From NCBI GenBank assembly GCA_017512905.1, contig JAFWEL010000013.1, positions 1-59,761 of the forward strand: DNA of 59,761 nt, written 5' to 3'. Each line of letters starts with the position of its first letter. Position 1 is the first letter of the stretch. This DNA is from Clostridia bacterium. Lineage in GTDB: Bacteria > Bacillota > Clostridia > Christensenellales > Aristaeellaceae. Made by a program: the position numbers and the translations under genes. Under the pieces are notes generated by a model that was not told the origin of the DNA, did no database searches, and worked only from the letters and a program-made list of their open reading frames with translations. Below are positions 20,521 to 42,080 of the stretch, one piece after another.

Positions 20521-20844
20521 GCAAGGCGATTTTTCCATCAAGTCGGAAAGACGGCCTATGGGCCATGAAGGATTCGAATGATTGTAGTATAGGGGCTGAG
20601 TCTTAAACACACTTCGAAGAAATCATACCTGGGCTATAGGAAATAGGAACACAGAAAACGGCTCTCCGCGATTCTACAGAAATACCGGAGATCACGCTCG
20701 TCAAATTCAGCAACTGCCTGAAATGGCTTACGACTCGACAGCCTGTGAGCCTTCCCGGACAGTTAATGAAATTAAACCACCAGGCTGAAACATAAATAAC
20801 ACACTTAGTATAATGAAGATTCATAAAAGCATATGTCAGGAGTG

Positions 20845-38691: not shown

Positions 38692-39678
38692 TTATGCTGC
38701 AGCACTCATAGCGTCGTATTCGGCTTGAGTGATGATCCCGGCTTTTAGCAGGTCATTCAGAAGATTTGGCTCACCTTCACCGGGCGCTTCGCCCTCGGCA
38801 GGTGCTTCGCCTTCAGCGGGCACGGTGGGCATCTCGCCATCCGGCTTGTGCTCATCCATGTAAGCCTGGATGGCGTCCCTGGTTTCCTGGGAGATGACCC
38901 CGCTGGCAACCATCGCGTCAAAGTCGATCATCTTCGGCGCCTGCTGGCCGTCAGTGGGCTGCTGGCCGGTCGGAGCCTGACTCTGGGGAGCCTGGCCCTG
39001 GGGGGCCTGGCTCTGCTCACCAGAGGGCATTTCGGGAGCGTCAGCGGGCTTCTCACCGGTCGGGGCTTGGCGCTGTTCGCCAGAGGGCATTTCGGGAGCG
39101 TCAGCGGGCTTCTCACCGGTCGGGGCTTGGCGCTGTTCGCCTGAGGGCATTTCGGGCTTCTCGCCGGTCGGGGCCTGGCCCTGCTCACCAGAAGACATCT
39201 CGGGGGCGTCAGCGGGCTTCTCACCGGTCGGGGCCTGGCTCTGTTTTTCGTAGGGCATTTCCGGCCGCTCGCCGGTCAGGTCTTCGGGCTCTGCGGGAGC
39301 ATCAGCAGGCTTCTCGCCAGTGGGCTTCTCTGGAGCCTCGGAGGGCTTTTCGGGGGCCTTCTGGTTATCGCCGGTGCCGGACTGCTTCTCACTGCCGGGC
39401 ATCTCGGGAGCGTCAGCAGGCTTCTCACCAGTGGGCATCTCCGGCCGCTCGCCGGTCAGGTCTTCGGGCTCTGCGGGAGCATCAGCAGGCTTCTCGCCAG
39501 TGGGCTTTTCCGGTGCGGCATCGGGCTTCTCGGGGGCTTGCTGGCCTTGCTCCATCCTCGGGGTTTGGCCACCCATGGGGTCTCCCATAGGGCCGCCCTG
39601 CGGGCCACCGTCAGCGAACGCGGCCACAGCTGAAGTCATCATTGCAACAGTCAGGATCGTAACAAGAATCTTTTTCAT
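38692..39678 (-). CDS. secreted proline-rich repeat protein
   Basis: A 328-aa exported protein: signal peptide (MKKILVTILTVAMM..., cleavage after AFA), a Gly/Pro/Met start (GGPQGGPMGDPMGG), then about 200 residues of repeats built on PTGEKPADAPEMPSGEQ, and a C-terminal part with two short SHOCT-like helices (MVASGVISQETRDAIQAYM and LLKAGIITQAEYDAM). The repeats are also nearly identical at DNA level. Extended Pro-rich regions usually span the wall. The start has AGGAGG. A two-box motif shared with the sigI promoter region lies 130 bp upstream (39808-39842), pointing to SigI control. Confidence 0.8.
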   Translation of the reverse strand: MKKILVTILTVAMMTSAVAAFADGGPQGGPMGDPMGGQTPRMEQGQQAPEKPDAAPEKPTGEKPADAPAEPEDLTGERPEMPTGEKPADAPEMPGSEKQSGTGDNQKAPEKPSEAPEKPTGEKPADAPAEPEDLTGERPEMPYEKQSQAPTGEKPADAPEMSSGEQGQAPTGEKPEMPSGEQRQAPTGEKPADAPEMPSGEQRQAPTGEKPADAPEMPSGEQSQAPQGQAPQSQAPTGQQPTDGQQAPKMIDFDAMVASGVISQETRDAIQAYMDEHKPDGEMPTVPAEGEAPAEGEAPGEGEPNLLNDLLKAGIITQAEYDAMSAAA

Positions 39679-39807
39679 GGGGATAACCTCCTTAATCATT
39701 TGGCTCTGTCGGTATGCCGGACTAGCTCTGCCGGCCTGTCGTGTTAACCTTTCAAAATTAACTGTATTGTCTGCAGGGAATGTGCACGGTTCTCTGCCGA
39801 TGGTGAA

Positions 39808-39842
39808 ATGATAACAGCTGATTCTGAAAGGAACCTTGAAGG
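39808..39842 (-). promoter_or_regulatory. candidate SigI-type promoter, site 1
   Basis: Minus strand CCTTCAAGGTTCC (39842-39830), 13-bp spacer, TGTTATCAT (39816-39808), upstream of the proline-rich repeat gene. The same two boxes with the same spacing occur at 41920-41954 before sigI. Confidence 0.5.
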
Positions 39843-39898
39843 TTTTTCGCCTTCACCATTGTTTTCGGTTGGTTGTATGGGAAAAATGGGGTGGGGGA

Positions 39899-39935
39899 GA
39901 AAAAAACCGCCCATCCTTGGAATAAAAATGGGCGG
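39899..39935 (-). terminator. Rho-independent terminator of the sigI-rsgI operon
   Basis: Minus strand CCGCCCAT / ATGGGCGG stem (39935-39907) followed by TTTTTTTC. It lies 10 bp past the rsgI stop. Confidence 0.88.
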
Positions 39936-39944
39936 AGAGTGAGA

Positions 39945-41171
39945 TTATCGCTTAGAACCTGGATCTGCTTCACGCGAAGTGGATTTCTCTGAGCCGCGTG
40001 ATTTGGATGGGTTGGCACCGTTATTTGTCTTGTCAGGTTGCCCGCTTCCAGGTGTGGATTTATCGGATCTCTTATCCCCATCGGAAGATGAATCCTGTTT
40101 CGGGTTGGATTCGCTCCTTTCCTTGGACGGAGCATCTTCGGGGCCTGACTGCTCCGGGGATACTCTGTCCGATTCCACCGGTTCCTGTGTGCTGGGATGA
40201 CTGTCAGTAGCTTGTTTCTCCGTTGGGCCCTGTGTGTCGGGAGAAGCGTCTGAAGGTTCGCCAGCGGCTGGTTTATCCGTTGGATTTTTTCCGCTGGAAG
40301 GAGCGTCACCAGCAGGGTTTTCCACAGGCGTTTGTACATCGGAAGGCGTATCAGCGGGTTTATCTTCCTGCATCGAACTGGATGGGAGCCGGTCGTTGAC
40401 ATCATCGGAAGGTGGTGCCTGTGGATCATCTGCCGGTGCGACGTCTGACTTTGCCTCCGAACCCCGCTGATCTTCATCAGGATTGCCTTCCACAAGCTCA
40501 CGAACGGGTTTATTCCCATAATCCTTGACGTCGGAAGTGCCTTCATCCCGCTGCCAGGCAGCGTAACGTCCTATGCTCATATCCGCTTCATCGGCTTCCT
40601 TTGCCGTTTTCCTGTCGGAATGGTCAATCCTGTATTCGATGGTGTGATTCTGTTCCAGCGTCGCCGTCATGGCCGTTTCGACCTCGTCGGAGAGGCGCTT
40701 TTGGCGGCCCTCGTTATCCGCGGACACATTGATCAACACATAGTCGTCCGTGGACTCGTCCATGTAGCCCTGGTTGTCCAGTATGCTCATCGTCTTTTCA
40801 ACAGCCTCTGACAGGGGGGTAAAGCGGACGCCTTCCTGTTCCAACACTTTCACAATGCTCTCCGCGTCATCATTGACAGCCCGTACATCCAGAACCCTGT
40901 CGCGCTTATTGAGGCTGTAAATAATGGAAGGATTCACATCCAGGCTTACTTCTGCATACGTAACGTAATTGCGGTCTATCCACATCGCCGTGCTGCCGCC
41001 AACCAGAATCAACATTGCCGCGGCAGCTGCGATCCACTGGACGAATCGCGGCCTGAGCCTGTAATCAATGATTTCCCCGACATTGTAAACGCCCCGGACA
41101 ATTCGCACGGTGCCGTCGTTCACCAGAACGGCAGCCTCCCCATTCCGCGTTTCCAAAACTACCGCTTTCAT
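39945..41171 (-). CDS. rsgI: RsgI-like anti-sigma factor
   Basis: A 408-aa membrane-spanning anti-sigma factor. Residues 1-50 form the cytoplasmic RsgI_N domain (VLETRNGEAAVLVNDGTVRIVRG); one transmembrane helix is at about 46-66; the next segment (AEVSLDVNPSIIYSLNKRDRVLDVRAVNDDAESIV) is the conserved periplasmic RsgI domain. The last 190 residues are a Pro/Ser/Asp-rich disordered tail rather than a carbohydrate-binding domain. RsgI proteins sense extracellular polysaccharide or stress and release SigI. Its ATG overlaps the sigI stop (ATGA at 41168-41171). Confidence 0.92.
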   Translation of the reverse strand: MKAVVLETRNGEAAVLVNDGTVRIVRGVYNVGEIIDYRLRPRFVQWIAAAAAMLILVGGSTAMWIDRNYVTYAEVSLDVNPSIIYSLNKRDRVLDVRAVNDDAESIVKVLEQEGVRFTPLSEAVEKTMSILDNQGYMDESTDDYVLINVSADNEGRQKRLSDEVETAMTATLEQNHTIEYRIDHSDRKTAKEADEADMSIGRYAAWQRDEGTSDVKDYGNKPVRELVEGNPDEDQRGSEAKSDVAPADDPQAPPSDDVNDRLPSSSMQEDKPADTPSDVQTPVENPAGDAPSSGKNPTDKPAAGEPSDASPDTQGPTEKQATDSHPSTQEPVESDRVSPEQSGPEDAPSKERSESNPKQDSSSDGDKRSDKSTPGSGQPDKTNNGANPSKSRGSEKSTSREADPGSKR

Positions 41172-41887
41172 AATGATCTTTCCTTTTTGATATAATCCAT
41201 GTATTCTGCCAGATATGGGTAGTCGCCGTCCAGTATCTCGGTTGCCGCGATGATATAGCGTCTGTGCCTTTCGATGATCTTCCGAGCAATTTCCAGCGCT
41301 TTCGATATGGCGGCGACGGGAAGGCTGTGCGTTTTTCGCATGTTCAGGATGCGCTCAACCAGAGCCAGCATCCAGTTGACTGCGCGGGCGCAGCAGTGCT
41401 TCGTCTTTGACGCCTTGGGCGAGGCTTCCGCGAGGTCAAAGAAGGAGAAGCCGTACTCTGACAATACGGCACCGAGCGCCTCTATCTCATCCCGGATCGC
41501 GTGGCCGGTGCTTTCGTTAGCCTGTACGAGCTTTTGCTGAACCTCGGCAACGACCCCGGTTGAATCATCCTCATCCCAGCACATGGCGCTGCCGGCACTG
41601 ATCTCGTTGGAACGCCGCGACTGTTTGTCGAAATAGTCCATGAGCCGCCGCCGGATGACCAGCGCCGCGAAGCCCATAAAACCGCCCGCGTCGGCGTCAA
41701 AGGCGCGCACGGCCTCGCAGAAGGCGACCAGCGCAACCTCATATTCATCGTCGCTCTGCGTGATGTACCGCCTGCAGGTCTTCGACGCGCAGCGCAGTAT
41801 AAAGCTGTTGTTTTCACGCACCAGCTCGTTCAGGGCGCTTTCGTCTGTTCTGGCGGCAACGGCCTTCTCATCGTAAGTATCGTGCAA
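41168..41887 (-). CDS. sigI: RNA polymerase sigma factor SigI
   Basis: A 239-aa sigma factor of the SigI group. Region 2 is visible in FILRCASKTCRRYITQSDDEYEVALVAFCEAVRAFD...FMGFAALVIRRRLMDYFDKQ. The C-terminal SigI-specific helix-turn-helix is LNMRKTHSLPVAAISKALEIARKIIERHRRYIIAA. It directs transcription of genes controlled by its paired RsgI. The pair is coupled by an ATGA overlap. The candidate autoregulated promoter is at 41920-41954. Confidence 0.93.
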   Translation of the reverse strand: MHDTYDEKAVAARTDESALNELVRENNSFILRCASKTCRRYITQSDDEYEVALVAFCEAVRAFDADAGGFMGFAALVIRRRLMDYFDKQSRRSNEISAGSAMCWDEDDSTGVVAEVQQKLVQANESTGHAIRDEIEALGAVLSEYGFSFFDLAEASPKASKTKHCCARAVNWMLALVERILNMRKTHSLPVAAISKALEIARKIIERHRRYIIAATEILDGDYPYLAEYMDYIKKERSL

Positions 41888-41919
41888 AACTATCTCTCCC
41901 TGGTTGTTTTGGTGAGAGG

Positions 41920-41954
41920 ATCATAGCAGGGCTTCCTTAAGGGAACCTTGAAGG
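41920..41954 (-). promoter_or_regulatory. candidate SigI-type promoter, site 2 (sigI)
   Basis: Minus strand CCTTCAAGGTTCC (41954-41942), 13-bp spacer, TGCTATGAT (41928-41920), 33 bp before the sigI start. It is identical in the first box to site 1 and has the same spacing. Confidence 0.55.
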
Positions 41955-42080
41955 ATCAATACAGTATTCGGAAATAGAATAAGAAAAAAAGGGGGAAGGC
42001 TCATTTCTTTCAATATAGTTTTAAGGTTCGGGTGGATAATGGCAGCATCGAAAGGGAAAACCCTAAGGAGGTCGATTGTC

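Follow-up and report, generated by a model that had tools for sequence, protein, structure and literature searches.

Predicted tandem SigI-type and CiaR-like promoters at sigI-rsgI and a secreted proline-rich protein gene in a genus of uncultured Clostridia

The DNA analysed here, which we call the window, is a stretch of 59,761 nucleotides that forms contig 205 of assembly G000 (3.53 Mb, 92% complete) of a bacterium of the Clostridia, and its minus strand carries a sigma factor gene, sigI, the anti-sigma factor gene rsgI and a gene for a secreted proline-rich repeat protein (Table 1). The sigI product matched ten NCBIfam SigI models, the best with an E value of 4.4e-49, as well as Pfam Sigma70_r2 above its cut-off; because all ten SigI matches lie below the models' own curated cut-offs, we classify it as a divergent member of the SigI family. 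Translation of the RsgI-like protein revealed an RsgI_M domain followed by a long Pro/Ser-rich tail. The proline-rich protein held no Pfam domain above cut-off, and proteins with N termini that look similar by eye are encoded behind the same regulatory box, described below, in genomes G010, G008, G016, G018, G023, G024 and G027.

Table 1. Genes and predicted promoter elements at the sigI-rsgI-proline-rich locus, in positions of the window.
Feature	Position	Strand	Details
sigI (SigI-family sigma factor)	41168..41887	(-)	TTG start at 41887; NCBIfam SigI and Pfam Sigma70_r2
rsgI (anti-sigma factor)	39945..41171	(-)	Pfam PF23750, E 1.6e-24; translation
Secreted Pro-rich repeat protein, 328 aa	38692..39678	(-)	Signal-peptide-like N terminus; ATG at 39678
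P1 of sigI-rsgI: C tract, T tract, CGAATA	41965..41995	(-)	First C to CGAA, 25 bases; predicted start ~41956
P1 of Pro-rich gene: ACCCC, T tract, CGAAAA	39862..39892	(-)	A to CGAA, 25 bases; predicted start ~39853
Direct-repeat regulator box at sigI, TTCAAG-N5-CTTAAG	41936..41952	(-)	PWM score 40.2, site within training set
SigA-like -10 TATGAT of sigI P2	41920..41925	(-)	10 bp after repeat; predicted start ~41913
Direct-repeat regulator box at Pro-rich gene, TTCAAG-N5-TTTCAG	39824..39840	(-)	PWM score 38.5, site within training set
SigA-like -10 TATCAT of Pro-rich gene P2	39808..39813	(-)	Predicted start ~39801

A preliminary description of this DNA had drawn attention to a two-box motif before both sigI and the proline-rich gene and had judged its 13-base identity and fixed spacing at the two sites unlikely by chance, which our searches bear out. 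The pattern CCTTCAAGGTTCC-N13-TGYTATSAT occurs exactly at 41920-41954 and at 39808-39842 (minus strand), and the distances given for it, 33 bp to the TTG of sigI (41887) and 130 bp to the ATG of the proline-rich gene (39678), are both right. No match appeared in 100 dinucleotide shuffles of the window, and the two sites are its only matches in the whole 3.53-Mb assembly (0 with the reversed pattern), such that the random genome-wide scatter named beforehand as counter-evidence did not occur. Dissecting the motif revealed two 6-bp direct repeats with an 11-bp period (TTCAAG-N5-TTTMAG), a further 10 bp and TATNAT, with neither the C tract nor the CGAA of a SigI-type promoter at either site. The -35 hexamer at 16-18 bp in promoters with this box matched TTGACA more poorly than random hexamers did. 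The motif is, as predicted from these features, a second promoter (P2) with the geometry of an activator-dependent SigA promoter and no SigA -35. A weaker box-like site at 20586-20618 of the window (minus strand, score 14.5) has no clear gene directly downstream, and the reversed window gave nothing above 9.

Overlooked in the preliminary description was a SigI-type promoter (P1) just upstream of each motif, where a C tract at -35 is joined to CGAA at -10 at an offset of 25 and the gap from CGAA to the first repeat is 14 nt at sigI and 23 nt at the proline-rich gene. The Bacillales SigI promoter consensus is ACCCCC--AA-N15-CGAA with 25 bases from A to CGAA (PMC4711584), CGAA or CGWA has been described as the SigI -10 element (PMC6056542, PMC10575876), and the -14 position of CGWA (PMC10575876) was used for our predicted SigI starts. 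The adjoining promoters fit this published consensus and spacing, which speaks against the earlier view of a promoter distinct from it: P1 shares the C tract, CGAA and the offset of 25 with the SigI promoters of Bacillales and C. thermocellum (PMC4711584). It differs in the tract after CCCC, which is T-rich at both window sites, whereas the published sets are A-rich (AA or AAA), as are three loci from MAGs titled Oscillospiraceae (L039, L040 and L042).

A strict SigI promoter pattern (MCCCCNNTTTTN13-14CGAAWA) gave 10 matches in 5 of the 28 genomes of the genus, with 3 in the reversed control, and those in G000 were solely the two window sites. In seven of the ten a box follows after 12-37 nt, two boxless matches in G001 precede surface-type genes, and one in G007, followed by neither a box nor a reading-frame start, is probably a chance match. 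Among the genomes with strict matches, G000, G001, G007 and G008 have a close sigI, and none was found in G010. Because both genes have a SigI-type promoter and the strict pattern finds no other in the assembly, SigI probably controls both sigI-rsgI and the proline-rich gene through a known type of promoter. The earlier proposal that SigI controls itself and this secreted protein is thereby retained in substance, with P1 in place of the flagged motif as the SigI promoter.

Comparing sigI loci revealed that the tandem arrangement recurs both within the genus and in the MAGs titled Oscillospiraceae. Six of the 28 genus genomes proved to have a close sigI (E below 1e-90), namely G000, G001, G007, G008, G009 and G012, and at all six a SigI-like promoter and a box stand together, the box being weaker in G012, the -35 less T-rich in G007, and the G001 box, identified by eye, one base nearer the -10 (9 bp) with a PWM score of only 0.4. 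The second sigI of G007 (L038) has neither a SigI-type promoter nor a box. In the three Oscillospiraceae-titled MAGs, sigI is 46-49% identical, the boxes score 19.2 (L039), 20.9 (L040) and 13.4 (L042), and the CGAA-box gap is 14 nt, the same as at sigI in the window. Across 22 loci (L054 not included), compared by means of a loose SigI pattern with no control, 7 had both elements, 8 had the SigI-like promoter without a box (L035, L037, L041, L044, L046, L049, L050 and L052) and 7 had neither; four more distant loci (L009-L012) had no box. A looser pattern, run with no control, also placed SigI-type promoters at sigI and at the secreted-protein gene directly downstream of rsgI in L035 and L037, and a second SigI-type promoter facing a divergent secreted-protein gene in L039, L040 and L042. 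The divergent promoters of the latter three lie between sigI and a secreted Gln/Pro-rich gene (L039 5835-5995). At L035 a weak box-like site (score 10.2) stands ~100 bp before a third SigI-type promoter (11647 and 11754).

The box itself is spread more widely across the genus than sigI. The exact pattern TTCAAGGTTN16-19TATNNT gave 30 matches in 17 of the 28 genomes (control, 3), of which 21 possess the second repeat and the nine others look like chance or coding sequence. When the second repeat was included and up to 3 mismatches were allowed (TTCAAGGTTNNTTTMAGGN9TATNAT), we obtained 83 matches in 26 of the 28 genomes and 0 in the reversed-pattern control, with no box at this threshold in G001 and G006. 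For 21 of the 26 box-bearing genomes no close sigI was found in their incomplete assemblies. In the wider order the signal is weaker than in the genus: a similar pattern matched 64 times, in 43 of 297 genomes, with 7 control matches.

Alignment of 63 distinct fetched sites yielded TTCAAG-N5-TTT(A/C)AG-N10-TATNAT, a shape selected by the search pattern, and revealed two features outside that pattern, a C at -1 (55/63) and a purine at +1 (57/63). At its third position the first repeat has C in 50 sites and T in 11, a ratio biased by a search pattern that asked for C, and the final G is present in 55 of the 63 first repeats and in all 63 second repeats. The four boxes of G009 include no TTCAAG; two begin TTTAAG, one CTTAAG and one ATAAAG. 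A 5' mRNA hairpin at the predicted +1 (mean z -1.03, with 27 of 62 below -1) is strong in some sites and absent in others, and so forms no part of our proposal. Within the proline-rich family the mRNA 5' ends may open with a hairpin whose loop holds CCGTGCACA (window 39768-39801, minus strand; L059, L068, L080 and others), and other members have short unrelated hairpins at that position or, in some cases, none.

Three further identities for the box were considered and rejected. LytTR/AgrA-type sites have a period of ~22 and the period here is 11, an argument by reasoning only. An ECF promoter with CGTC downstream was set aside on the ground that TATNAT is better conserved than the GGAA-like stretch, in sites gathered with a search pattern that favoured TATNAT. 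For WalR, the YycF-like regulator L144 (below the model's cut-off) has a different helix.

To describe the genes behind the box, we used 86 distinct sites with flanks, mostly from the genus and some from the wider-order scan, and a simple home-made signal-peptide rule. The first reading frame looked secreted at 55 of the 86 sites as compared with 87 of 666 random positions in the same loci, and at 3 sites no reading frame was found downstream. Enrichment before secreted genes had been proposed as a check on the motif and is indeed seen, but as a property of another regulator's promoter. The downstream genes, classified by eye with Pfam searches for nine proteins, encode proline-rich proteins, NPPEGMG-repeat proteins (one with a weak beta-helix match), an esterase-like protein, VTC-DUF4956 operons and membrane-fusion-like proteins. 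G000 itself has a box with 3 mismatches before an operon of VTC-domain, DUF4956 and Cthe_2159-family genes (L262 6066-9520, contig 67), and another on contig C164 before an NPPEGMG-type secreted protein without a Pfam match. Our literature search found nothing on the regulation of VTC/DUF4956/CotH. P2 would be part of a genus-wide regulon of mostly secreted proteins, comprising Pro/Gly-rich and beta-helix proteins and the VTC-DUF4956-Cthe_2159 operon.

We then evaluated candidate regulators of the box. Every one of the 28 genus genomes has an OmpR-family regulator close to the CiaR kind (E up to 1e-50 against that of G000). The CiaR recognition helix is VVEVYVSKVRKKL (PMC3091779); 9 of its 13 residues are identical in the helix of group B, NLEVYVSFLRKKL, and 8 of 13 in that of group A, VVWVNISQLRKKL, which is present in G000 on contig C151. 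Group B, with this helix or one close to it, occurs in 25 of the 28 genomes, the helix having been read in 24 and G003 placed by score alone, with the gene in two pieces in G004 and G022. The order box, proline-rich gene, group B regulator, kinase is found in G021 and G013, that is 2 of 19 group B regions, and in the other 17 no box was found near the regulator. Of the 6 loci fetched from family f16, 4 have a box placed 46-51 nt ahead of the gene for an OmpR-family regulator. Group A regulators of relatives are preceded by a variant box with identical geometry at 12 of 14 loci (one weak). These variants (L184-L188 and L190-L196) read mostly (C/T)TTTAG-N5-NTTAGG, then GATAAT and GTCC, which suggests paralogues with their own box spelling. 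The f16 boxes (L160, L162, L163 and L164) read TTTAAG-N5-TTTAAG-N10-TATAAT, and the regulator gene is followed by a reading frame whose start resembles a Pro-rich ectodomain. A repetitive, Pro-rich ectodomain marks the group B histidine kinase of G010 (P0002, L215 3614-5002), which in this respect resembles the secreted targets and the RsgI tail.

Neither the group B regulator nor its kinase turned up in G000, its sister G009 or G006, and yet G000 and G009 keep boxes, whereas G006 is boxless within 3 mismatches. At E up to 1e-50 the only matches are to group A in G000 and to group C in G009, and G006 has both groups A and C. The rotamase gene that usually neighbours group B is present without the pair in G009, where another gene follows it directly, and in G006, and no close copy of it was found in G000. 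As G000 is 92% complete, a gap in the assembly is possible and another regulator may act there; none of its 11 OmpR-type regulators has a box scoring >9 in the fetched flanks. Because two box-bearing genomes, G000 and G009, yielded no group B regulator or kinase, we assign the box, from its sequence, to a CiaR-like class of regulator and to no named protein in the window's species.

It is possible, if on the unlikely side, that in the window's species a paralogue (group A, on C151) or a group C-like regulator took over the boxes after the loss of group B, a reading compatible with our preferred one. Such a takeover would accord with the boxes kept by G000 and G009 beside a group A or a group C regulator alone, and with the G009 boxes being free of TTCAAG, as TTTAAG-type boxes stand before the f16 regulator genes. 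However, the group A boxes of relatives are mostly spelt differently, as given above, and G006 combines groups A and C with no box within 3 mismatches. In the 8 kb around the group A regulator of G000, a group A-type box is absent bar one weak site.

Clearly less probable is that SigA reads P2 with an activator other than an OmpR-family response regulator. The box fixes only the DNA and not the protein, and the failure to find group B in G000 and G009 would fit such an activator, but CiaR promoters have this very arrangement, with 11-bp-period direct repeats 10 bp upstream of the -10 (PMC3091779). In four genomes of another family the box immediately precedes an OmpR-type regulator gene, and a variant with the same geometry lies upstream of group A regulators in relatives. 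That the motif is itself the SigI promoter, the new promoter class of the preliminary description, is very improbable even though it occurs exactly twice in the assembly, at sigI and a neighbouring secreted gene, as its -10 is a SigA-like TATNAT with no CGAA or C tract, known-type SigI promoters adjoin it, a close sigI match is lacking in 21 of the 26 box-bearing genomes of the genus, and at L035, L037 and L041 sigI has a SigI-type promoter but no box.

The reading we prefer, at a probability of about 0.78, is that both genes possess tandem promoters, a SigI-type P1 and a SigA-dependent P2 activated by a CiaR-like regulator, within a genus-wide regulon; the two promoter types, their conservation, and the regulon with its enrichment are what the sequences themselves supply. 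Through P1, SigI would exert feedback on sigI-rsgI as well as driving the secreted proline-rich gene. P2 would be a SigA promoter without a -35, activated by a phosphorylated CiaR-like OmpR-family response regulator that binds the 11-bp-period direct repeat, which would occupy the -35 region; here we infer the sigma factor, the activation by a response regulator and the start sites. Because the predicted SigI starts precede the boxes by 4 bp at sigI and 13 bp at the proline-rich gene, polymerase at P1 and the regulator with polymerase at P2 would likely compete for the same DNA. More speculatively, since the regulator box overlaps the region just past the SigI start, an envelope-sensing two-component system and SigI-RsgI might exclude each other at sigI and a SigI target as a two-way switch, which we regard as doubtful. 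If this were true, proline-rich sensors (the ectodomains of RsgI and of the group B kinase) together with proline-rich targets would fit sensing across the cell wall.

For the box, the closest parallels are streptococcal CiaR promoters, which read NTTAAG-N5-TTTAAG with ten bases to the -10 (TATAAT) and a preferred C before the start (PMC3091779), and some of whose targets are envelope genes (PMC3091779, PMC8317062). Both window sites likewise have two 6-bp direct repeats 5 bp apart and 10 bp to a TATAAT-like -10, and a C before the predicted start is shared by most of the aligned sites. The window sites differ in their target genes and in the first repeat, which is TTCAAG and not TTTAAG. In the CiaR consensus each repeat has an invariant third T, second A and final G, and it is the third T of the first repeat that is replaced by C at both window sites. 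Because TTCAAG replaces TTTAAG, we describe the element as working like a CiaR box and not as one. CiaRH is, according to a 2010 account (PMC3091779), apparently not found outside streptococci, and a CiaR-like regulator outside them has been described in Bacillus, where BAS0540-BAS0541 binds NTTAAG-N5-TTTAAG at sites that include its own promoter and a membrane-fusion-protein gene (PMC4938410). Membrane-fusion-like genes, judged by eye, follow the box here as well (L101, L138 and L139). Unlike the present case, BAS0540-BAS0541 shows no SigI link in the excerpts of its published description and has another predicted regulon (PMC4938410).

For the pairing of promoters, the nearest known arrangement is that of B. 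subtilis lytE, where a SigI promoter is paired with a SigA promoter dependent on phosphorylated WalR and each promoter influences the other (PMC7299342). As at lytE, a SigI promoter and a SigA promoter would meet at one cell-envelope gene, here by sequence only; unlike at lytE, the box is CiaR-like and downstream of the SigI promoter, and the pair stands at sigI itself plus another gene. Our literature search found no published link between CiaR-like boxes and SigI. For a large group of secreted, repetitive proteins in uncultured Clostridia, whose named relatives are largely rumen and gut MAGs, the proposal offers a control signal that can be tested. Judged from its promoters, the present case would combine dual control of the lytE type with a CiaR-like regulator outside streptococci, which suggests that SigI and a response regulator are coupled at shared genes not just in B. 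subtilis, at lytE, but also in another lineage, where the regulator is a different one.
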